A stretch of DNA of 12,714 bases from Planctomycetota bacterium (GTDB lineage Bacteria > Planctomycetota > UBA8108 > UBA1146 > JAJFFE01). Location: positions 1 to 12,714 of the forward strand of contig JAGQRC010000037.1 in the NCBI GenBank assembly GCA_020425835.1. The letters run 5' to 3'. Shown here piece after piece: positions 1 through 12,563 of this stretch (its first letter is position 1; each line of letters opens with the position of its first letter). A program made the translations under genes and the position numbers. The notes beneath the pieces were generated by a model. That model ran no database searches, was not told the origin of the DNA, and worked only from the letters and a program-made list of their open reading frames with translations.

Positions 1-569
1 ACCTGGTCGGTCGGCGAAACGCCGAGGTTCTTCGCGATCGATCCGGCGAGGTCGATGGCCCGGTCGAGATCGGTCGGCGCGGGAACCACCTCGAGCGCGT
101 CGATCGCGCGCGTGAGGATCCCGCGATCCGCCGTGACCGGGGTCAGCGCCTCGGCGCGTCGCGCGAAGCGGATCAGAACGGCGCGCTCGTCGTCGCCCAT
201 CGCCTCGACGTACTCTCGGAGGAGTCGCTGCGCCTGCTCCAACCGCGTCCGCCCGTCTTCGCGAACCGCCATGCTCGCGGAGACGTCGACGAGGAGCAGG
301 TTCACTCGGCCCGGCACACTCTCGGTCTCCATCTGGGGTTCCGCCAGCGCCCCGACCAGAGTGATGATCGCGAGGATCTGCATCAGGAGGAGGAGGCTCT
401 TCTTGAACCGCTGGAACGGCGAGTTGACCCGCTGGTCATCCAGCACGCGGGCCCAGAGCAGCGTGCTCGACACGAGGACGCTGCGCCGCTTGAGCTTCAA
501 GAAGTAGAGCAGGATCACGGCCGGCACGAGCAGCAGGCCGAAGAGCGCCGCGGGATTCGCGAAGGTCAT
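1..569 (-). CDS. BatA-like vWA membrane protein (3' end cut off by window edge)
   Basis: Last visible gene of the minus-strand MoxR operon; 189 codons are seen and the gene continues past the left edge. It starts MTFANPAALFGLLLVPAVIL. A first membrane segment lies at about residues 7-24 and a second at about 59-76, separated by a basic cytoplasmic loop; this is the layout of the BatA/aerotolerance-regulator N-terminal domain. A von Willebrand A domain follows from about residue 88, with the metal-ion (MIDAS) motif D95-V-S97-A-S99 and a later PTDLDRAI segment that probably supplies the MIDAS threonine. The vWA domain should face the periplasm. The start codon overlaps the stop of the DUF58 gene (ATGA, 566-569), which implies translational coupling. 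In the family, such proteins work with MoxR and DUF58 partners; the exact role here is not known. The missing C-terminus could hold a third membrane segment or extra domains. Confidence 0.9.
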   Translation of the reverse strand, partial: MTFANPAALFGLLLVPAVILLYFLKLKRRSVLVSSTLLWARVLDDQRVNSPFQRFKKSLLLLMQILAIITLVGALAEPQMETESVPGRVNLLLVDVSASMAVREDGRTRLEQAQRLLREYVEAMGDDERAVLIRFARRAEALTPVTADRGILTRAIDALEVVPAPTDLDRAIDLAGSIAKNLGVSPTDQ

Positions 570-1534
570 CCCAACAGACCTCGCTTCCGCAGGTAGCCGA
601 GCACGAGGTGGTCGAACGGGACATCGGTCGTCGCGAACAGCGGGCTCACGCCGCGCTGACTCGCGCGATGCTGGACCGCCGAGCGGAAGCCGGCCACGCT
701 CTCGCGGTACGCCTCGAGAAGGCGCCGGTTCAGGGACACCTCGACGATGCTGTCGTCCTCGCAGTCGACGAGGCGCAGATCACCGACGAGCTCCGGATCG
801 ACCTCCTCCGGCGAGAGCACGTGGATCAAGTGGGTCTCGACGCTCCTCGCGGTGATGTGTCGCAACGGCCCCTCGAATCCCGATGGATCGAGGAGATCGG
901 AGATCAGGATGACCAGACCGCGACGGACGAACGCGTGCGCGAACGCGCGCAACGAGCGCTCGAGATCGGTGTGTTGGCCGACGGGGACCGACTGCAGGAA
1001 TCGGAACAGGCGCGGCGCGTTACGCTTCCCTCGCACCGGCCGAAACGGCGCGTGCAACTCGTTGGAGAAGGGATACACGCCGACCCGGTCCTCGGCGACG
1101 AGTCCGATGTACGAGAGCGCCGCCGCCACCTGCAAGGCGTAGAACAGCTTCTCCGGCCTACCCGTCGCCATCGACTTCGAGACGTCGACCAGGATGCTGA
1201 CGGTCAGATCCTCCTCTTCGTGGAAGAGCTTCACGAAGAGCCGGTCCAGACGACCGTAGATGTTCCAGTCGAGGTAGCGCAGATCATCACCCGCGACGTA
1301 GTCGCGGTAGTCGGCGAACTCGGTGGAGAAGCCGCGCCGGCGGGAGCGACGCTCCCCGCGCACGCTCCCCGAGACGGTCTTCCGCGAGACCAGCGAGAGG
1401 CGCTGGATCTTCGCGAGGAAGCCGTCATCCAGGAGTGGAGGTCGTTCCGTCGTCGATCCCGACTTCCGCGAGTCCATCGCGCCGGAGGCGCCCGTCGACG
1501 TCGAGCCGGCTGTTCGAGGTTCTTCGGACAACAT
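566..1534 (-). CDS. DUF58 domain protein (MoxR partner, vWA-like)
   Basis: Middle gene of the operon, 322 residues. The DUF58 core is clear: EFADYRDYVAGDDLRYLDW at about 72-90, followed by GRLDRLFVK, then a vWA-like segment with D117-V-S119-K-S121. The first 36 residues are low-complexity and rich in Ser, Thr and Gly. No transmembrane segment is seen, so this is probably a soluble or peripheral cytoplasmic member. The ATG lies 9 nt after the MoxR stop, with a G-rich stretch (GGGGG) only 2 nt from it; the next codon TTG or the internal ATG at residue 20 could instead be the start, since the conserved part begins only near residue 37. The 3' end overlaps the BatA-like gene by ATGA. Known family context: DUF58 proteins are almost always encoded beside MoxR ATPases and are presumed substrates or adaptors. 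Function here is inferred from that pairing. Confidence 0.93.
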   Translation of the reverse strand: MLSEEPRTAGSTSTGASGAMDSRKSGSTTERPPLLDDGFLAKIQRLSLVSRKTVSGSVRGERRSRRRGFSTEFADYRDYVAGDDLRYLDWNIYGRLDRLFVKLFHEEEDLTVSILVDVSKSMATGRPEKLFYALQVAAALSYIGLVAEDRVGVYPFSNELHAPFRPVRGKRNAPRLFRFLQSVPVGQHTDLERSLRAFAHAFVRRGLVILISDLLDPSGFEGPLRHITARSVETHLIHVLSPEEVDPELVGDLRLVDCEDDSIVEVSLNRRLLEAYRESVAGFRSAVQHRASQRGVSPLFATTDVPFDHLVLGYLRKRGLLG

Positions 1535-1543
1535 CGCCCCCGA

Positions 1544-2608
1544 TCAGGAAGCGAGCGAGTCGGGGAGCACTTCGGGCACGCGCTCGAGGATTTCGTCGAG
1601 GATCGTGTCGGCCTTCTTCCCCTCTGCTTCCCCCTCGAAGTTCAGGATCAGTCGATGGCGGAGCGCGGCGTGCGCGGTGGCTCGCACGTCGTCGAAGCTC
1701 ACGTTGTAGCGCGAGTCGAGCGCCGCGCGTACCTTCCCGCCGAGCATCAGCGCCTGGGCTCCGCGCGGGCTCGCTCCGTAGTGCACGAAGCGGTTCACCG
1801 ATTCGGAGGCCGACGTGTCTCCGGGATGCGTCGCGAGGACGAGGCGAATGGCGTAGTCGCGCACGTGCGGCGCGACGATCAGCTCTCGGATCAGGCGTTG
1901 GTTGGCGAGGATCGTGGGGCCGTCGAGGACCTTCTCCGGCTGGGCCTCGTAGATGTCGGTGGTCCGTCCCATCACCTCGGAGAGCTCCTCGCGAGTGGGG
2001 AACGGGACATCGACCTTGAAGATGAAACGGTCGAGCTGCGCCTCCGGGAGCGGGTAGGTGCCGTCCATCTCGAGCGGATTCTGTGTCGCCATCACCAGGA
2101 ACGGCTCCTCGAGCTGGTGGCGCTCGCGACCCACGGTGACCGTGTGCTCCTGCATCGCCTCGAGAAGCGCGGACTGGGTCTTGGGTGTGGCGCGATTGAC
2201 CTCGTCGGCCAGGATGATCTGACCGAAGATCGGGCCTCGCTGGAACTCGAAACGCCGCGATCCGTCGTCCGACTCCATCACGATGCGGGTGCCGATGATG
2301 TCCGCCGGCATCAGATCGGGCGTGAACTGGATCCGGGAGTACTTGAGGTCGAGGACCTCTCCGAGGGTCCGGACGAGCAGCGTCTTCCCGAGCCCGGGTA
2401 CGCCCTCGAGTAGACAGTGCCCTCCCGCGAAGAGCGCGATCAGCGCGCTCCGGACGACCTCGTCCTGCCCGACGACCTTCTTCGCGACCTCTTCCCGGAC
2501 GCGCGCGAACGCTGCGCGGAACTCCGCCAGCCGCCCTTCGAGCTCCTGACGCGATTGCGGATTTCCGCCCGCGGAGCCCCCACCCGTCGAGTCACCGATA
2601 CTGTTCAT
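1544..2608 (-). CDS. MoxR-family AAA+ ATPase
   Basis: First gene of the minus-strand operon, 354 residues, a normal length for MoxR. Seen in order: VVGQ at 45-48; Walker A GVPGLGKT at 69-76; Walker B IILADE at 131-136; sensor 1 in ATQNP at 174-178; the MoxR segment GTYPLPEAQLDRF at 183-195; and the sensor-2 region YGASPRGAQAL near 277-287. All ATPase residues look intact. The first 25 residues are a Gly/Ser-rich leader. The ATG is supported by GAGGAG (plus-strand positions 2619-2624), 10 nt upstream. MoxR proteins are chaperone-like ATPases that act with vWA proteins in maturation of complexes or in envelope stress. The two genes directly downstream, DUF58 and BatA-like, are the expected partners. 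The gene is divergent from the lipoprotein at 2934, and the shared control region carries the repeat cluster described separately. Confidence 0.97.
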   Translation of the reverse strand: MNSIGDSTGGGSAGGNPQSRQELEGRLAEFRAAFARVREEVAKKVVGQDEVVRSALIALFAGGHCLLEGVPGLGKTLLVRTLGEVLDLKYSRIQFTPDLMPADIIGTRIVMESDDGSRRFEFQRGPIFGQIILADEVNRATPKTQSALLEAMQEHTVTVGRERHQLEEPFLVMATQNPLEMDGTYPLPEAQLDRFIFKVDVPFPTREELSEVMGRTTDIYEAQPEKVLDGPTILANQRLIRELIVAPHVRDYAIRLVLATHPGDTSASESVNRFVHYGASPRGAQALMLGGKVRAALDSRYNVSFDDVRATAHAALRHRLILNFEGEAEGKKADTILDEILERVPEVLPDSLAS

Positions 2609-2699
2609 CTGCGAAACGCTCCTCGGACCCGACCGCGTTCGGGGTATGCTCCCGAACCGACGGTCGCGGTGTCAGTTGGACCTACCGTTCCGGGGTCGG

Positions 2700-2705
2700 A
2701 TTCTA
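2700..2705 (-). promoter_or_regulatory. Possible -10 box for the MoxR operon
   Basis: The minus strand reads TAGAAT (5 of 6 matches to TATAAT), about 92 nt upstream of the MoxR ATG. Seventeen nt further upstream is CTGTCG, a poor -35. It abuts one composite repeat copy, so a bound regulator could block it. Weak evidence, position-based only. Confidence 0.22.
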
Positions 2706-2829
2706 AGTGGTCGGGTCCGAAACGACAGCGACGTTTCGGGATCGACGGGTTCTCGACGGCCCGGGCCCGACCACTCCCGGAGACGAGTGTGGACTCCTCG
2801 GACGTTTCGCGGATCCGACCACCGAAACG
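2706..2829. repeat. Inverted and direct copies of a ~20-nt composite repeat
   Basis: The composite unit is CGTTTCG, then 0-2 nt, then GAYCCGACCAC. One copy reads on the minus strand (2724 to 2706) and one on the plus strand (2803 to 2822). A third, degenerate copy starts at 2732 on plus (CGTTTCGGGATCGAC). Two smaller inverted repeats are nested here: CCGAAACG-N7-CGTTTCGG (2717-2739, perfect 8-nt arms) and CGTTTCG-N13-CGAAACG (2803-2829, perfect 7-nt arms). The two full copies could also pair with each other as a long hairpin if the region were transcribed. Confidence 0.6.
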
Positions 2830-2880: not shown

Positions 2881-2886
2881 TATACT
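2881..2886 (+). promoter_or_regulatory. Possible -10 box for the lipoprotein/EboE-like unit
   Basis: TATACT (5 of 6 to TATAAT) stands out in very GC-rich sequence, 48 nt upstream of the ATG at 2934. No convincing -35 is seen at the usual spacing (TGCCGT at 2858-2863). It lies just downstream of the last heptamer copy (2823-2829), which would place the repeats over or upstream of the polymerase site. Confidence 0.33.
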
Positions 2887-2933: not shown

Positions 2934-3863
2934 ATGATGTCGCACCGCACCCGGAAGCTCTGCCTCTCGACCGCGCTCCTCGGCCTCGTCCTCGGCGCGA
3001 GCGCCTGTATCCAGAATCCTCCGAAGAGCGATGAGCCTTCCTCGGCGGCGCACACCGGCTCGAGCGACTCCACGCCATCGACCATGGATCGCACCGATCC
3101 GCCGACCGCGATCGATCCCGGCTCGCGTCGACTGTCGCGCGCCGAGCTCTCCGGGTTCGGAACCGACGCCTCGGACGAGATCAACTCGACGTCGATCACC
3201 TCTCTCGATGTCCGTACCGGCCGCGGCACGGTGACCATCACCGGGGACCCGATGGCGCGGTCGATCCGAGCCTCGGCGAAGATCCGCAGCTGGGCGGAGA
3301 CCTACCCCGAGGCGGAACGTATCGTCCGGGAGATCGCGATCCGGTTCATCGCGCGGGACACCGAGAACCCCTCCCTCATCGTTCCCGAGCCCGACCTGAC
3401 GACAGCGAACCAGGACTACGAGTGCGATCTGACCATCGTGCTCCCACCCAGCGTCCGCGTCTCCCTCGACAACAATGGCGGCGATGCGGCGATCACCGGA
3501 TTGCTGTCCGGTCTCAAGGTCGTCCACAACGGCGGTGAGCTCACGATCCAGCGGGTCCAGGGCGGAGTCGAAGTCGACAACCGCGGAACCGCCGCGCACC
3601 TCACGGAGCTCACCGGGCTGGTCCAGGTACGCGACCGCTCCGGCGACCTGACGATCGGGTTCGTGACCGGCGAGGTCCTCGTGGAGGACAACGAGGGCGA
3701 TCTGACGATCCACTCGGTCACCGGCAATGTCACCGCGCGCAACAACACGGGCACGCCTCGGTTCCAGAACATCGACGGCGACCTCACACTCGTCGGGATC
3801 GCGCACAACCGAGCGGTCGTCGAAGGCGTCTCGGGCTCGGTCGTCTACCCGTCGAGCCACTGA
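2934..3863 (+). CDS. DUF4097-like beta-repeat lipoprotein
   Basis: 309 residues. The start is the first of two adjacent ATGs; GGAAGG at 2917-2922 lies 11 nt upstream. The N-terminus is a lipoprotein signal: basic MMSHRTRK, a hydrophobic stretch, then GASAC with the lipid cysteine at C25. Residues 26-70 form a Ser/Thr/Pro-rich linker. From about 85 to 110 there is a short beta segment (TSLDVRTGRGTVTITG), then a helical stretch, then from about 175 to 305 six or so repeats of roughly 20 residues with the pattern (V/L)x(V/A)xNxxGDLTIxxVxG. This is the right-handed beta-solenoid style of DUF4097/adhesin-like proteins. It probably sits in the periplasm or at the outer membrane and binds an unknown partner. 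It is divergent from the MoxR operon and directly upstream of the EboE-like gene, so probably cotranscribed with it. No catalytic motif is seen. Confidence 0.88.
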   Translation: MMSHRTRKLCLSTALLGLVLGASACIQNPPKSDEPSSAAHTGSSDSTPSTMDRTDPPTAIDPGSRRLSRAELSGFGTDASDEINSTSITSLDVRTGRGTVTITGDPMARSIRASAKIRSWAETYPEAERIVREIAIRFIARDTENPSLIVPEPDLTTANQDYECDLTIVLPPSVRVSLDNNGGDAAITGLLSGLKVVHNGGELTIQRVQGGVEVDNRGTAAHLTELTGLVQVRDRSGDLTIGFVTGEVLVEDNEGDLTIHSVTGNVTARNNTGTPRFQNIDGDLTLVGIAHNRAVVEGVSGSVVYPSSH

Positions 3864-3878: not shown

Positions 3879-5099
3879 TTGCTGGTTCCCGTTGCGCCGC
3901 GCCGGCCTCCGCTCCTCCTCTCGTACGAGATGAACGTGCACCCGGCACGGACCGCCACCGATCTCCTCACCGCGATCGATGACTTCGTCGTTCCGATTCG
4001 TCGAAGCCTCGCTCCCGGTGCGCCCTTCGGGATCGTTCCGCACATCGGCCGCACGTTGGTGAACGATCTCGCTCCGGGCGAACACCGCGAAGCGCTCCGC
4101 GAAGCGCTGGCGCGACACGATCTCTTCATCTTCTCGATCAATGCGTTCCCGCTCGAGGACTTCCACCAAGAGCGGGTGAAGGCGTCGGTCTACGACCCAC
4201 CCTGGACCGATCCCGAGCGGGCTCGGATCACGCATGCGATCGCGGATCTCGTCGCCGATCTCGTCCCCGACCGACCGAGCACGATCTCCACGCTCGGCGG
4301 CACCTATCGGGCCTGGGGTGACGACGCACCGACGCATCGAGCGATCGCCCACCACTACGCGAGCACCGTCGTGCACCTCGCGGAGATCGAGCGCCGTACG
4401 GGTCGGACCATCACCTTGACCGTCGAGCCCGAGCCCGACACGACGTTCGAGACGGCGGAGGATGTCGTCCGACTCCTGCGAGGTCACCTCCTCCCCCATG
4501 CTCGGGAGTGGGTCGGCGATCCTCTGGGCGTCTCACGATCCGAGGCCGAAGCGCTCATCCACCGGTTCTTCGAGGTGAACCTGGATGTCTGCCACCAGTC
4601 GGTCCTGTTCCGCGACCCGATCGTGGAGTGGCGTGCTCTCGAGGATGCGGGGCTGCGCGTCGGGAAGCTGCACGCCACGAATGCGATCGCCATGCGCCAC
4701 CCCGGTCGATCGCCCCGAGCGCGACAGGAGCTCGATCGCTTCGACGAGCCGCGCTACCTCCACCAGTTCGCCGCACGCCGGCGCGACGGCGTACTCCTCC
4801 GCGGCGCGGACCTCGACCGGCTCGACGAGGTCGACCTGGACGAGTGCGACGAGCTTCGCGTCCACTACCACGTGCCGCTCTCCCGGGCGCGGCTCGGCCG
4901 CCTGACGACCACGCGGGACGACACGGCGCGCGCTCTCGCGTTCGCGGCAGGTCACGACGCCCCACCACACGTCGTCGTGGAGACCTACACCTGGCCCCTC
5001 CTCCTGGCCGATGGGGAGTTCGCCGCGCGCCACCGCGCGCTGGTGGACGGGCTCCGCCGGGAGCTCCGCTGGACGCGGCGCGCCCTGGCCGCTCGTTGA
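3879..5099 (+). CDS. eboE: EboE-like TIM-barrel protein (xylose-isomerase-like fold)
   Basis: 406 residues, cytoplasmic by sequence (no signal peptide). It resembles the metabolite traffic protein EboE, a sugar phosphate isomerase/epimerase-like TIM barrel: LSYEMNVHP at 14-22 (first strand), FSINAFPLEDFHQERVK at 85-101, VYDPPWTDPER at 104-114, TVEPEPDT at 181-188, NLDVCHQSVLF at 234-244, GKLHATNAI at 262-270, HYHVP at 329-333 and VVVETYTW at 365-372. Candidate metal or catalytic residues are E183, D236, H239, H265 and E368 (inference). The start must lie before the first strand; the frame offers only TTG 3879 or CTG 3882 after the upstream stop, and GAGG at 3866-3869 lies 9 nt before the TTG. 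It follows the lipoprotein by 15 nt in the same frame. In ebo clusters EboE occurs with EboA-D and EboF and is tied to export of a metabolite precursor; none of those genes is seen here, so the substrate is unknown. Confidence 0.8.
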   Translation: MLVPVAPRRPPLLLSYEMNVHPARTATDLLTAIDDFVVPIRRSLAPGAPFGIVPHIGRTLVNDLAPGEHREALREALARHDLFIFSINAFPLEDFHQERVKASVYDPPWTDPERARITHAIADLVADLVPDRPSTISTLGGTYRAWGDDAPTHRAIAHHYASTVVHLAEIERRTGRTITLTVEPEPDTTFETAEDVVRLLRGHLLPHAREWVGDPLGVSRSEAEALIHRFFEVNLDVCHQSVLFRDPIVEWRALEDAGLRVGKLHATNAIAMRHPGRSPRARQELDRFDEPRYLHQFAARRRDGVLLRGADLDRLDEVDLDECDELRVHYHVPLSRARLGRLTTTRDDTARALAFAAGHDAPPHVVVETYTWPLLLADGEFAARHRALVDGLRRELRWTRRALAAR

Positions 5100-6227: not shown

Positions 6228-9200
6228 ATGCACCGACGAACGAGCACCGAAAGAGAATCCAGAGTCATGCGCAGAGTTCGAACCGCGCCGCGGTCTTCCG
6301 CCGCCACTTCGTGTCTGCTGCTCGGCTGCGCGCTCGCGACCGCGATCGGCTGCACGAGCGGCCTCGGCCACTTGATCGGGCGCAACACCGTCATCACGAT
6401 CCAGAGCGCCAACGTCCTCCAAGGCTTCGATCTCGGGGGAACCGCGGCGCTGACCGATCCGGTCACCGACACTTCGGTCGCCGGCGCGACGATCCCGTCG
6501 CGCGGCTCGAATGGTGACCTCCAGGTCGTCTTCACCGCCTTCACCACCGCGACCGATGCCTCGGCTCTGACCTCGATCTCGGGGGCGGGATCGTTCCAGA
6601 TCGCCTCGACGACCGACGGCAACGGCACGAGAGACGTGTTCCTCGCGGTGTCCAGCAAGGCGGTCGTCGGGGGACAGCCGACCGCATTCAACCAGGCGCT
6701 GATCGACACCTTCCATCACCCGCGTTGCGTTCGCTGTCACAGCTTCATCTCGCCGACCCAGCCGACCTTCACGTCGTTCGGGAGTTCGGGAGCGGGCCAA
6801 CACATCGGCACTCCGACGTCGAACTGCCTGAACTGTCACAATCCGTCGACGACCGGTACGCACACGAATGGCATGGCCGTCGATTGGGAGGCGCCGACCG
6901 ACCTCGAGTTCAAGCGGGCGGACGGCACGCTGAAGAGCGCCGAGGAGCTCGTCCAACAGCTCCTCGACTTCGAGACGTCGACGAGCGAGCCGATCGCCGA
7001 TCACCTGAAGAACGATGACAAGATCCGCTGGGCGATCGATCGCGCCACGCTGCCGCAGGACGGTCGCGTCGCCTCGGGCGGCGACGTACCGATCGACTCG
7101 ACCACGTGGGCCGCGCAGATCGACGCGTGGGAAGCGGGCGGCCGACAGGTCACGACGTCCGATGCGACTCAGGACATCGCCCTCGTGAGTCTCGCCACCG
7201 GCTCCGCCGCGGCGGGCACGGCGGGAGAACCGTCGATCACCTATGTGCCCAATCCGAGTTTCGACGAGGCGAGCCCCGCCGCGACCTACGCCGGCCGCGT
7301 CTACGTCGCCTACGTCAGCAGCTCCACGTCGATCTCCGGGGCCTCCGTCGCGGGAGGGAATGCGAACGTGTTCCGCGCGGAGATCGAGGTCCATGTCGAT
7401 GCCAGTGACAACGTCACGCTGGTCCACAACGGTTCGATCCTGATCAGCGCCGTCGACAGCACGACGACGACGCCGGGGAACGCCGACTCCGCGGCGCCGA
7501 GCATCTCGCGAGACGGGACCGGCGTCGCCTTCGAGAGCCTCGCGACCAACCTCGCGACCTTCACGGAGCGCAATGCCGCCGATGAGCCCGACATCTTCGT
7601 CCGTCTGGTCTCGGGCAACGACACCATCCTCGCGAGCCATCGCCACGACGATCTGACGCTCGGAGGGAACTCCGGATCGTACGCGCCGTCGCTCGGGCCG
7701 GACGGTGGACGCGTCGCGTTCGAGTCGGACGCCACCGATCTGATCGGCGCCGACGGCAACGCGCTCCGCGACGTCTTCCTCGCCACGCAGGTCTCCACCG
7801 GCCCCGCCGTGCGACGCGTGAGCCAGAGGATCGATGGCACCGAGTCGTCGGGCGGCGCCTCACGGCGCGCGTCGCTCTTCGCCGACACCGACGGGATCCT
7901 CGTCGCGTTCGAGTCGTCGAAGACGAACCTCACCTTCGACGCCCGCAGCGCGTCGACCAACATCTTCCTCTTCGACGCCCCGACCGGCGAGGATGAGACG
8001 CTCACCCTCATCAGCCGTCGGCTCGCCCCCGGCGTCAACGCGCCGGGGAACGGGAGCTCGACGCGACCGGTCGTCTCGCCCAACGGCACCGCCATCTACT
8101 TCCAGACGACGGCGACCAATCTCGACGGCACACGCACCACGGACGCCAACGGATCGCTCGACATCATCCGCGCCGACATCTCGGGGCTCCCCCAACGCAT
8201 CGATGTCGAGCGTGTGAGCATCACCCAGGGTGGATTCGACGGCGACGGCGATTCCCAGGAGGTGCGCGTCGGCCGCTTCGAGCGTCCCGATGGCGACAGC
8301 ACTCAGGAGATCGCGCTGTTCCGAACGGCGGCGACGAACCTCGGGACACCGATCGACACGGGTCTGGTGATCTCCCTGATCACGCCGAACTCGAACCCCG
8401 CGCCGTCGTTCACCCACGTCCCGGACCGTCCGGTCGGACTCACGTTCGAGACCTTCACCTTCGACGCGTCCGCCACCTCGGATCCCGATGGGGACACGAT
8501 CGTCTCCTACGCGTGGGACTTCGGCGACGGCAACACCGCGACCGGGATCACGACGAGTCACTCCTACTCGTTGCCGGCCGCGCGAACGATTCGCCTCACC
8601 ACGACCGACAGCGAGGGGGGCCGGGCGTCGTCGACGTTCGTCCTCCAGACCATCCCGGTGAAGACCGATCCGTTCAGCGTGCCGGGCAGTTACTCCCCCA
8701 TTCCCGCACTGGAGACGATCTCCTTCGACGGCAGCGGATCGTTCGACAACGACCTCGGCGACGACGTCATCGCCTGGAGCTGGGACTTCGGGGACGGGAT
8801 GACCGGCTCGGGCGAGATGGTCGACCACCAGTACCTCGCCGAGGGCACCTACACCGTCACCCTGACCGTGTCCGACTACTTCGGGGACACCGGAACCAAC
8901 ACGACGACGGTCACCGTCATCGAAGCGGACCCGACGTTCTCGGGGATCTTCCCGGACATCATCCAGGCGCGGTGCGGCGGGGGCGGTTGTCACAACGCTT
9001 CGAGCCCCGGCTTTCCCTACTTCAACGCCGACGAGACCGACGCGATGACGGCGTACACCGAGATCACCGGCATCACCAGCAGCTCGGTCTGCTACTCGGG
9101 GATCGACTACGTCGCCGCCGGGGATCCCGACAACAGCCTGTTGTTGATCAAGGTCGACTCGACCCTGCTCAGCAGCTTCGGCGGCGCCTGCGGAACCGGC

Positions 9201-9287
9201 TCCCTGATGCCCGGCCCCGGCAGCCCGTTGACCGCAGCGGAGATCCTCCGAATCCGCCTCTGGATCCAACAGGGCGCACCGTTCTGA
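6228..9287 (+). CDS. Large lipoprotein: diheme domain, PD40 propeller, two PKD domains, C-terminal cytochrome c
   Basis: 1019 residues if started at ATG 6228 (GGAG at 6214-6217, 10 nt upstream). The ATG at 6267 gives a more normal 27-residue lipoprotein signal ending in ATAIGC, so it may be the true start. Numbering from 6228: lipid cysteine C41; a diheme domain at about 155-305 with CVRCH (C167-H171) and CLNCH (C200-H204). That domain's layout (HPRC..CH, later C..CH, then a tail with IADHL, IRWA and IDAWEAGG) recalls the diheme domain annotated in isoquinoline 1-oxidoreductase-like subunits. Beta-propeller PD40/TolB-like repeats (PSxSxDGxxVAFES.ATNL) follow at about 420, 482, 541 and 607. 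PKD domains with WDFGDG lie near W763 and W852. A last cytochrome domain has CGGGGCH (C916-H922), a probable axial Met in LMPG (M994) and the tail LWIQQGAPF. It should be exported and heme-loaded, on the outer membrane or cell surface. Redox partner and substrate are unknown. Confidence 0.88.
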   Translation: MHRRTSTERESRVMRRVRTAPRSSAATSCLLLGCALATAIGCTSGLGHLIGRNTVITIQSANVLQGFDLGGTAALTDPVTDTSVAGATIPSRGSNGDLQVVFTAFTTATDASALTSISGAGSFQIASTTDGNGTRDVFLAVSSKAVVGGQPTAFNQALIDTFHHPRCVRCHSFISPTQPTFTSFGSSGAGQHIGTPTSNCLNCHNPSTTGTHTNGMAVDWEAPTDLEFKRADGTLKSAEELVQQLLDFETSTSEPIADHLKNDDKIRWAIDRATLPQDGRVASGGDVPIDSTTWAAQIDAWEAGGRQVTTSDATQDIALVSLATGSAAAGTAGEPSITYVPNPSFDEASPAATYAGRVYVAYVSSSTSISGASVAGGNANVFRAEIEVHVDASDNVTLVHNGSILISAVDSTTTTPGNADSAAPSISRDGTGVAFESLATNLATFTERNAADEPDIFVRLVSGNDTILASHRHDDLTLGGNSGSYAPSLGPDGGRVAFESDATDLIGADGNALRDVFLATQVSTGPAVRRVSQRIDGTESSGGASRRASLFADTDGILVAFESSKTNLTFDARSASTNIFLFDAPTGEDETLTLISRRLAPGVNAPGNGSSTRPVVSPNGTAIYFQTTATNLDGTRTTDANGSLDIIRADISGLPQRIDVERVSITQGGFDGDGDSQEVRVGRFERPDGDSTQEIALFRTAATNLGTPIDTGLVISLITPNSNPAPSFTHVPDRPVGLTFETFTFDASATSDPDGDTIVSYAWDFGDGNTATGITTSHSYSLPAARTIRLTTTDSEGGRASSTFVLQTIPVKTDPFSVPGSYSPIPALETISFDGSGSFDNDLGDDVIAWSWDFGDGMTGSGEMVDHQYLAEGTYTVTLTVSDYFGDTGTNTTTVTVIEADPTFSGIFPDIIQARCGGGGCHNASSPGFPYFNADETDAMTAYTEITGITSSSVCYSGIDYVAAGDPDNSLLLIKVDSTLLSSFGGACGTGSLMPGPGSPLTAAEILRIRLWIQQGAPF

Positions 9288-10133: not shown

Positions 10134-12350
10134 TCAGAGAGCCGGTCCGAGCGCCACGAACACGATGCTCTCGCCGCCTTCCGTGAAGCCGAGTCCGAGG
10201 TAGCCGGGTCCGAGCACCGTCTTCGCGCCGAGGAAGACGCTTCCGGCGAACAGGGAGTTCGGAACGGTGATGTCACTGCGGTCGGCGTAGACGTTCCCGA
10301 ACTCGAGCGATCCACCGAGAAAGACCTCGTTCTCGATCGGAAGAGCGGCGCGCTCGCCCAGACAGACGTACGACGTGAGACTGGAGAAGAACAGGTATCG
10401 CCCGGATCGCGAACGTCTCGGCTCCCCCGAGAGGTTCAAGAACCCGCCGAGCGAGAACGTCGACGTCAGCGAGCCCGCGCCCTCGATCGACGCGCCGTAG
10501 TCGACGGATGGCGCAAGGGTCCACCGCCCGATCGAGTATGCCGCGTCCGCAGATCCCTCGTAGGTCGCGAAGTCCTCGTCGCTCCCGAGGGACTTGCGAA
10601 CGAATCCGAGCTCGTGGGCGCTCGACAACCCGGAGCGCGGGAAGCTCGGGTCGTCCAAAGTGTCGATGGCTGCACGAACCCGATAGCGACCTTGACGGAT
10701 CGACACTCTCGGAAGCGGAGAGACGAGTGTCGCGGACCGAGGCGCGGCTCGAGCGTCCAAGAACTCGATCCCCGCGCGGAGCTCGCCCCAGTTGGAGATC
10801 TGTGCGCCCGCGTCGAGTCCGACGTACGAGCCCTCGACGCGGTACTCTGCGAGGGCCCTCCCATCCTGGAAGATCCGGAGGTTGTTCTCGACGTACCCGA
10901 TCCGCGGCTCGACGAAGGTGAACCCGTACTTGTCGAGGGGTTGCCAGATCTCGGTGTCGAAGCGGACCTCTTGACCGATCTGAGCGCGGCTCCGCCACTC
11001 CCCACCCCACCCGTTCAGGGGCATCCACGTGAACTGCGTTGCGAAGTCGAGCTCGTTCTCCCCATCGAGGTCATCCTCGTACCGTGCGCCGATCCGCAGG
11101 AATCCACGCCCCAGCTCGCGAGCGTGCGTCGAAACCGTGAGGTCCGCGACATCTCCGGGACCCAAGTCGTGCTCCACACTCTCGAACACCGAGAGGCCAT
11201 GCAGACGACGAAGTCCTTCGTCCAGCGCATCGGCGTCGAAGGGATCCCCGGGCGCGATGCCTGCGCGGGCCCGGACGGCCTCTTCCGCGAGCACCTCATC
11301 CCCCTCGATCCGTATCTCGCCGAACCTACGGGGAGGACTGCTCGGTCGGCGCTGCCGCAAGAGATAGCGCTGCCACTCGCCGGGGCCGACCGAGAGGTGC
11401 TTCAATCGGTCCGCCGCGGCTCGCGCCCCTTTCTCGCCGAGAGCGATAGCCTCACCGACGTGGGAGAAGTCGGCCGGCGAGAAGTCCCCCAGCTCGGGAA
11501 CGATCAACACGTCCGTTGCCGCCAGCTGCCGTCGCTGGGCTCGATTGTTCTGGTGTACGGTGAGACCGATGAGCTGCCCCGAGACCGCGAACACCGAGAG
11601 AAGACCCTCGCGCGACCGGAGCGGCGTGCCGATGTCGACGGCGATGATCACGTCCACGTCCATCTCGCGACACGCCGCCACCGGCAGGTTCTGGACCAGG
11701 CCACCGTCCACGAGGGGTCGTCCGTCGATCTCCACCGGATTGAACGCGCCAGGCACCGACATGCTCGCACGAATCGACGTGGCGAGGTCTCCACCTCGGA
11801 GGACCACGACCTCACCGTTCTCGAGGTCTGTCGTCACGCAGCGAAAGGGAAGGGGCAGGGCGTCGAACGACGCCGGCCCGCGCAGGCGATCGTTCACGAG
11901 CCGCTCGAGAATCTGGAGCAAGGCCTGGCCGGTGATAAAGCCCCGAGGGAATGCGAGTGAGCCGTTTCGCCACCCGAGCTCGAGCCGGGCGAAGAAGTCT
12001 CGGTCCTCCTCCTTGCGTCGAAACGCGAGAGCGCGACGCGGCGGCCGATCGCTGAACGCCGCGTTCCACTCGACACTTCCGATCGCGTCGATGAGCTCGT
12101 CCGGAGCGTAGCCGATCGCGTAGAGCCCGCCGACGACGGATCCCATGCTGGTACCGCTGATCGCGTGGATCGGAATGTGGAGCTCCTCGAGAACTCGAAG
12201 CACACCGATGTGAGCGGCACCTCGGGCGCCTCCTCCCGAGAGCACGAGGCCCACGCGTGGCCCGCGAGGAGCGAGCGGCGACGTCGTCGAACCGGTCTGG
12301 CCGGAACAGATGGTGCACATCAGCCACGCGAACACGAGTCCTCGAGCCAC
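10134..12350 (-). CDS. PlpD-like patatin phospholipase-POTRA-beta-barrel protein (type Vd autotransporter)
   Basis: 738 residues from GTG 12350. This start is preferred because AGGGGG lies 6 nt upstream and it gives a direct signal peptide (ARGLVFAWLMCTICSG); the frame is open further upstream, but that part is low-complexity and has only a TTG start. The patatin domain runs from about 32 to 330: oxyanion hole GGGARG at 39-44, nucleophile elbow GTSMG at 66-70 (S68) and DGG at 215-217 (D215), so the Ser-Asp dyad is complete. A POTRA-like domain lies at about 353-425 (FGEIRIEGDEVLAEEAV, then GLSVFESVEHDL), followed by a long 16-strand-type barrel to the end. Length and order match PlpD, in which the lipase is moved across the outer membrane by its own barrel. 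The last residues are VALGPAL, ending in Leu instead of Phe or Trp. It would hydrolyse phospholipid acyl chains at the surface or after release. Confidence 0.9.
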   Translation of the reverse strand: MARGLVFAWLMCTICSGQTGSTTSPLAPRGPRVGLVLSGGGARGAAHIGVLRVLEELHIPIHAISGTSMGSVVGGLYAIGYAPDELIDAIGSVEWNAAFSDRPPRRALAFRRKEEDRDFFARLELGWRNGSLAFPRGFITGQALLQILERLVNDRLRGPASFDALPLPFRCVTTDLENGEVVVLRGGDLATSIRASMSVPGAFNPVEIDGRPLVDGGLVQNLPVAACREMDVDVIIAVDIGTPLRSREGLLSVFAVSGQLIGLTVHQNNRAQRRQLAATDVLIVPELGDFSPADFSHVGEAIALGEKGARAAADRLKHLSVGPGEWQRYLLRQRRPSSPPRRFGEIRIEGDEVLAEEAVRARAGIAPGDPFDADALDEGLRRLHGLSVFESVEHDLGPGDVADLTVSTHARELGRGFLRIGARYEDDLDGENELDFATQFTWMPLNGWGGEWRSRAQIGQEVRFDTEIWQPLDKYGFTFVEPRIGYVENNLRIFQDGRALAEYRVEGSYVGLDAGAQISNWGELRAGIEFLDARAAPRSATLVSPLPRVSIRQGRYRVRAAIDTLDDPSFPRSGLSSAHELGFVRKSLGSDEDFATYEGSADAAYSIGRWTLAPSVDYGASIEGAGSLTSTFSLGGFLNLSGEPRRSRSGRYLFFSSLTSYVCLGERAALPIENEVFLGGSLEFGNVYADRSDITVPNSLFAGSVFLGAKTVLGPGYLGLGFTEGGESIVFVALGPAL

Positions 12351-12563
12351 GGGATGCCCCCTGCCTTGCTCATCCGACCGCTCGCTCGCGGCTTCACGCG
12401 CACTCGGTGCGCTTCGCGTAGAGGACACCGCTCGACGTCCCGGGCGCCCCCTTGACGCTGATGAACTCGAGGCGCAGCCCGCCAAGTTCGAACACGCTAC
12501 TTCAGTCTTGACGCCGAGGGTAGCGCGATCCTGCCGACCCGCAGCCGCCCCCTCACGCCGCCG
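12351..12563. other. Divergent spacer upstream of the patatin gene
   Basis: 213 bases between the GTG of the patatin gene and the first ATG of the right-edge gene. Any promoters for both should lie here. CGCTAC (12495-12500) and GTAGCG (12520-12525) form an inverted repeat with a 19-nt spacer, and TTGACG at 12508-12513 resembles a -35 box but has no matching -10. Part of this stretch (from 12465) is open in the frame of the right-edge gene, so the real gene start could be farther left. Confidence 0.35.

Follow-up and report, generated by a model that had tools for sequence, protein, structure and literature searches.

Across the genomes compared, the gene order batA-DUF58-moxR facing a lipoprotein gene and eboE is conserved in one planctomycete class, while the dense short repeats that lie between the two operons in the DNA analyzed here (the window, the whole stretch of 12,714 nucleotides) are not. 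These repeats are probably a local oddity and not a conserved control switch. The explanation that we prefer, with a probability of about one half, is a lineage-specific palindromic expansion between the divergent promoters of a conserved block, arisen by duplication or insertion. Taken alone, the repeats would be of little consequence. Of greater use is the finding that, in 15 of the 29 genomes of one Planctomycetota class, a MoxR-vWA operon is paired divergently with the same two genes, those for a beta-repeat lipoprotein and EboE. If the link is true, this pairing would supply a set of candidate clients or partners for a MoxR system whose function is unknown.

Gene order and its conservation

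Three genes on the minus strand form the left part of the window. The batA/vWA gene (3–569), which runs off the window, encodes a BatA N-terminal domain (PF07584, E = 9.8e-17) and a VWA_2 domain (PF13519, E = 4.6e-14). It is adjoined by a DUF58 gene (566–1534, minus strand; PF01882, E = 4e-38) and by moxR (1544–2608, minus strand; PF07726 AAA_3, E = 2e-62), whose product combines the AAA_3 and lid profiles with the DUF58 and vWA neighbors expected of a MoxR AAA+ ATPase. Across a spacer of 325 bp, the plus strand encodes a beta-repeat lipoprotein with a DUF4097/Toastrack-like match below cut-off (2934–3863) and EboE (TIM_EboE; 3879–5099). The eboE frame is open from a putative TTG start at 3879, and its product clears the equivalog cut-off of NCBIfam NF035939 (303.7 versus 250 bits).

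The nearest MoxR orthologues, as recovered by a scan of 392 genomes of what we take to be Planctomycetota, are those of G287 (75% identity, partial), G278 (74%), and G200 (70%). The class of G278 comprises 29 genomes, and all counts refer to these genomes as assembled. Close MoxR orthologues (63–75% identity, >450 bits) were present in 18 of the 29; in the remaining 11, the MoxR matches listed had about 50% identity or less. The lipoprotein gene was found in 15 class genomes, all of them among the 18 with a close MoxR. It is adjacent and divergent to moxR in 14 of the 15 and directly followed by eboE in every one (15/15). In the fifteenth genome (G236), moxR and the lipoprotein gene each lie at the start of a separate contig, the arrangement that a break of the assembly between the two genes would produce. 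EboE itself is present in 27 of the 29 class genomes. On the other side of the block, batA lies beside DUF58 and moxR in seven of eight relatives' regions searched, and in the eighth (G287) the contig ends in moxR. G360, which has MoxR and no lipoprotein match, is represented by a contig that stops 665 bases beyond where the moxR match begins, and G328 and G089 carry batA-DUF58-moxR without the lipoprotein gene or eboE in the 12–14 kb examined. The 15 represent fewer independent lineages than their number, because several are closely related to one another. In a collection of genome contigs, 25 loci from the best 80 of 590 MoxR relatives were searched for the lipoprotein, and none of the 25 genomes gave a match.

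Conserved divergent (bidirectional) gene pairs in bacteria are predictors of co-regulation. Like such pairs, moxR and lipoprotein-eboE keep the same divergent neighbors in distant relatives (14/15) and have conserved -10 boxes; unlike them, neither gene here is a transcription regulator, and a shared operator would be hypothetical. A link between the two operons is probable: the divergent order has persisted although the lipoprotein has diverged strongly (23–50% identity to the window copy across the alignment), and the predicted lipoprotein promoter is conserved. The original prediction had connected the MoxR operon to the lipoprotein through the repeats; the connection itself is supported by the divergent order and the -10 boxes and not by the repeats.

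Predicted promoters and the repeats of the spacer

The spacer would hold two divergent promoters, each with its own -10 box: TAGAAT at 2705–2700 (minus strand) for moxR and TATACT at 2881–2886 (plus strand), followed by GCC, for the lipoprotein gene. A sigma-70 and terminator scan gave no prediction, and both boxes come from comparison with relatives. TATACT or TACACT is located 37–63 nt upstream of the lipoprotein ATG in all 12 spacers (window and 11 relatives), and shuffling places TAYACT at that distance in at most 0.9% of cases per sequence. For moxR, TANGAT or TAGAAT was found upstream of the gene in the window and in the three relatives nearest to it (4/4; G287, G278, G200), with a chance of 1.6–3.7% each for a pattern that was chosen post hoc, and in 5 of all 12 regions. 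This footprint left out G213, G269, and G125, in which the lipoprotein start is unclear, and G236, with its genes on two contigs; G213, G269, and G125 have TACACT 124–149 nt upstream of the moxR match. Both boxes are sequence predictions that we take to be in use. A search of the available literature for a Planctomycetota promoter motif together with transcription start sites found none. In 9 of the 12 spacers (all but those of G278, G200, and G186), GCC or CCC comes immediately after TAYACT, and this extended motif is perhaps a feature of promoters in the class.

The window's spacer is long: 325 bp compared with 151–237 bp in the 11 relatives, and 175 bp between the -10 boxes compared with 90 (G287), 116 (G278), and 73 bp (G200). 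By arithmetic, a 70-bp palindrome described below makes up most of the extra length. The dense CGAAACG cluster that had been predicted here was recovered, with five copies in 2612–2829 (2612–2618, plus; 2718–2724, plus; 2732–2738, minus; 2803–2809, minus; 2823–2829, plus) and exactly five in the other ~12.5 kb, all within coding DNA. Ten copies in the whole window compare with a mean of 3.17 after shuffling and were reached in 1 of 200 shuffles. The plus-strand copies at 2612, 2718, and 2823 are spaced by 106 and 105 bp, or about ten helical turns, an observation made post hoc.

Other features of the predicted architecture were found in modified form. A second element, GAYCCGACCAC, was said to occur four times; two copies are exact (2707–2717, minus; 2812–2822, plus) and the other two (2626–2636 and 2764–2774, both plus) carry one mismatch each. 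CGGAYCCGACC with at most one mismatch has four occurrences in the region and a single further one in the window, at 8926; with at most two, the 26 occurrences in the whole window compare with 33.8 expected, that is, no over-representation. The two elements are indeed joined twice in opposite orientation, in units of 18 nt (CGTTTCG + GACCCGACCAC; 2707–2724, minus) and 20 nt (CGTTTCG + CG + GATCCGACCAC; 2803–2822, plus) that differ by a 2-nt indel and a substitution, where a near-identical ~20-nt unit had been described. The 18-nt unit sits one base upstream of the moxR -10 box. Both inverted repeats, with arms of 8 and 7 nt, are real, and they lie side by side and not nested in each other as had been stated: CCGAAACG-N7-CGTTTCGG at 2717–2739 (arms 2717–2724 and 2732–2739) and CGTTTCG-N13-CGAAACG at 2803–2829 (arms 2803–2809 and 2823–2829). 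The 8-nt dyad is itself nested in 14-nt arms (2706–2719 and 2762–2775, 93% complementary), which gives a Y-shaped imperfect palindrome of 70 bp (2706–2775) with 14-nt outer arms and two inner hairpins. The cluster was placed between both -10 boxes, which holds for four of the five CGAAACG copies; the copy at 2612–2618 lies outside, between the moxR ATG and its likely ribosome binding site, GAGGAG (2619–2624, minus strand; read from the sequence). Since the moxR -10 box lies inside the repeat cluster, the moxR leader includes one copy each of CGAAACG and CCGACC. The decamer CTCCTCGGAC, which contains the ribosome binding site, recurs at 2794–2803 and is also present upstream of moxR in G278.

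Dinucleotide shuffles of 2609–2933 served as the null for repeat counts. The region repeats itself beyond what composition explains, because the shuffles do not reach its pair and self-similarity totals. Repeated 7-mer pairs amount to 62 compared with a mean of 25.6 (0/2000 shuffles), and the ungapped self-similarity total is 79.0 (0/150). For the spacer including the start codons, the pair totals at k = 6, 7, and 8 were each reached in 0/500 shuffles (at k = 8, 27 pairs versus 7.3 shuffled). Five copies of one 7-mer were reached in 45/2000 shuffles. Taken singly, the longest repeats are unremarkable, the best ungapped pair being reached in 51/150 shuffles and the 12-nt exact repeat in 179/2000. 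Nor is the excess unique: 65 and 63 pairs were counted in the 325-nt stretches at 7676 and 7701, five others of the 39 contig tiles exceed the region's 79.0 (127, 107.5, 86, 81.5, and 81.5), and some coding stretches score as high as the spacer in self-repetition. The relatives' spacers are repeat-rich to a lesser degree than that of the window. The strongest excess among the 11 is that of G200 at k = 8 (9 versus 2.3 pairs, 7/500 shuffles), followed by G200 at k = 7 (24/500) and G278 at k = 6 (26/500).

Origin and role of the repeats

Conserved copies near the same genes in relatives would have spoken for the proposed operators. CGAAACG, CCGACCAC, and CCGACC, which occur five, three, and five times in the window's spacer, are each absent from the spacers of all 11 relatives, and the 400 nt preceding the moxR match in G213, G269, and G125 contain none of them. 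The composite pattern, searched in slightly different forms in class and phylum, is present in 0 of the 29 class genomes and in 1 of the 392 phylum genomes (G109). The G109 match is probably coding, as it is overlapped by open frames of 518 and 257 codons. When the spacer DNA was compared with the 29 genomes, at least 27 gave some short and weak match at E up to 1, the best E among the matches listed being 0.0047, and many of these matches fell in a GTCGCC-rich stretch at query positions 250–271. The spacer had no match in a plasmid collection at E 0.01. In a viral collection of 2.9 million contigs, the composite pattern occurred in 15 stretches with one match each, which we took as chance, and a search of the available literature for the motif returned, judged by title, nothing beyond Pichia papers. 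Within the contig, the best second match to the 20-nt composite unit lies in coding DNA inside the BatA/vWA gene (4–21, minus strand) and scores 13.0, compared with 10.5 for the region's own second copy; no second ungapped copy within three mismatches was found in the window. At the distance reached by these genomes, the repeats are not a conserved operator, a result that counts against the proposed operators for a shared regulator by the refutation test of the original prediction itself. Local repeat density in a promoter is by itself no evidence of an operator: the promoters are conserved here, the repeats are not.

Operators turn over quickly, and the nearest MoxR is only ~75% identical, so that the repeats may yet be a lineage-specific operator; with the nearest relatives this distant, the fact that they lack the repeats says little against a function. 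A regulator dimer might bind the CGTTTCG/CCGACCAC units as an operator array private to this lineage and set both operons together, one unit lying just upstream of the moxR -10 box and the other ~64–90 bp upstream of the expected lipoprotein transcript start (~2893). This is the main rival explanation, and we consider it less likely than not. It accords with the excess of repeats over shuffles, the presence of two dyads and of two oppositely oriented composite units, the four CGAAACG copies between the -10 boxes, the roughly ten-turn spacing noted post hoc, and the conserved divergent order. It is at odds with the empty spacers of the 11 relatives, the rarity of the composite in class and phylum, the better match in coding DNA at 4–21, the copy between the moxR ribosome binding site and ATG, and the dyads themselves, which are opposite in polarity and differ in spacer length (7 versus 13 nt). 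It is unlikely, in our judgment, that BatA-DUF58-MoxR and the Toastrack-like lipoprotein with EboE form a single co-regulated envelope module, in which a MoxR-vWA chaperone set and a lipoprotein-EboE pair would share a substrate under a private CGTTTCG/CCGACCAC multi-site operator in this lineage.

Under the preferred palindromic expansion, the long stretch between the -10 boxes in this lineage would be filled by an imperfectly palindromic mosaic of short repeats, which probably originated by local duplication or by insertion of a small palindromic element. We infer that no dedicated regulator is involved, and the repeats would act at most locally, for example through changed spacing or a hairpin. 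Several points weigh against this explanation. Insertion would be expected to have left copies elsewhere in the genome, and by direct reading no target-site duplication was seen at 2706/2775. Two-part units in both orientations between two promoters also have the look of an operator array, and the stable spacer hairpins of two of the three nearest relatives, described below, are a further point against it.

The insertion branch of the preferred explanation overlaps with another, that the cluster is one mosaic member of a dispersed family of small palindromic repeats (REP/BIME- or MITE-like). PMC3733652 reports REP families from Planctomycetes and describes many REP families whose units lie close together in opposite orientation. 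As in those REP/BIME elements, the units here are short and palindromic, several of them are in opposite orientation, and they are intergenic. The 70-bp Y-shaped palindrome, the extra spacer length, and the dyad sizes of 23 and 27 bp, which are within the 20–40 bp of a palindromic unit, also agree with such a family. Unlike the elements defined in PMC3733652, neither dyad is flanked by an unpaired GTAG/CGTC tag on direct reading, and the composite is absent from the 29 related genomes. With the 20-nt unit present just once in the window (up to three mismatches, ungapped) and, among the matches listed, only short weak ones in the 29 relatives' genomes, we consider membership in a dispersed family improbable.

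Least probable of all, and by our estimate very unlikely, is a structured-RNA role for the palindrome, in which an unrecognized promoter further upstream would drive its transcription as part of a leader or as a small RNA. The stretch 2704–2777 does fold at -39.8 kcal/mol (z = -3.61, with 1 of 200 shuffles as good). The palindrome is, however, upstream of both -10 boxes and would thus fall outside both predicted transcripts; it has no Rfam match, longer stretches are unremarkable (z = -1.65 and -1.92), and several genes of this contig contain stronger folds. The best spacer folds of the nearest relatives have z = -3.2 in G278 and G200 and -1.8 in G287. With a stable spacer hairpin in two of the three, the hairpins of the window may not be mere accident; the relatives' hairpins share no architecture, and those of G278 and G200 differ from the window's in sequence and place. 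Stable folds in genes include 1366–1435 in the DUF58 gene (z = -5.9, 30 shuffles) and 7911–8050 in a PKD-domain gene (z = -5.1 and -3.5, 30 shuffles each).

The lipoprotein, EboE, and other window genes

The Cys that follows the signal peptide is invariant in all 11 aligned lipoprotein sequences. The closest relative (P0002) is 58% identical over 76% of the query, and a search of the viral collection yielded no relative. DUF4097/Toastrack is the sole Pfam profile listed for the lipoprotein, at 12.4 bits compared with a gathering threshold of 22.9, and P0002 scores 13.8 bits, also below this threshold. An AlphaFold model built from two sequences had a pLDDT of 66.8, and Foldseek found no PDB match to it at E 0.001; the weak matches were led by the putative adhesin 3pet (E = 0.037, TM 0.26–0.34), with 4opw and 4qrk lower. 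In the paper that defines the Toastrack domain (PMC11237479), 4QRK and 4OPW serve as examples, the domain is assigned to the cell interior, and Toastrack (DUF4097/DUF2154/DUF2807) proteins are described as belonging to the Lia/PSP envelope-stress systems. The lipoprotein resembles these proteins in its weak DUF4097 match, its weak matches to 3pet, 4opw, and 4qrk, and its beta-repeats; it differs in its sub-cut-off score and in being a signal-peptide lipoprotein, whereas the domain is placed intracellularly there. Because of the sub-cut-off profile, the weak structure matches, and this difference in placement, assignment to the Toastrack/DUF4097 family is merely suggestive.

The gene behind the lipoprotein gene resembles a member of an ebo cluster in that its product clears the EboE model cut-off. 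Unlike in an ebo cluster, no other ebo gene was detected among the nine window proteins scanned, and eboE is paired with the moxR operon. A search of the available literature yielded no paper with both MoxR and EboE, or with both MoxR and Toastrack.

Further downstream in the window, 6228–9287 encodes the PKD-domain protein, whose translation contains CxxCH-type heme motifs (CVRCH and CLNCH) and later CGGGGCH. In the product of 10134–12485, a patatin domain precedes POTRA and an Omp85 match that is below cut-off, a layout that we take to be that of patatin-type self-secreting outer-membrane phospholipases.
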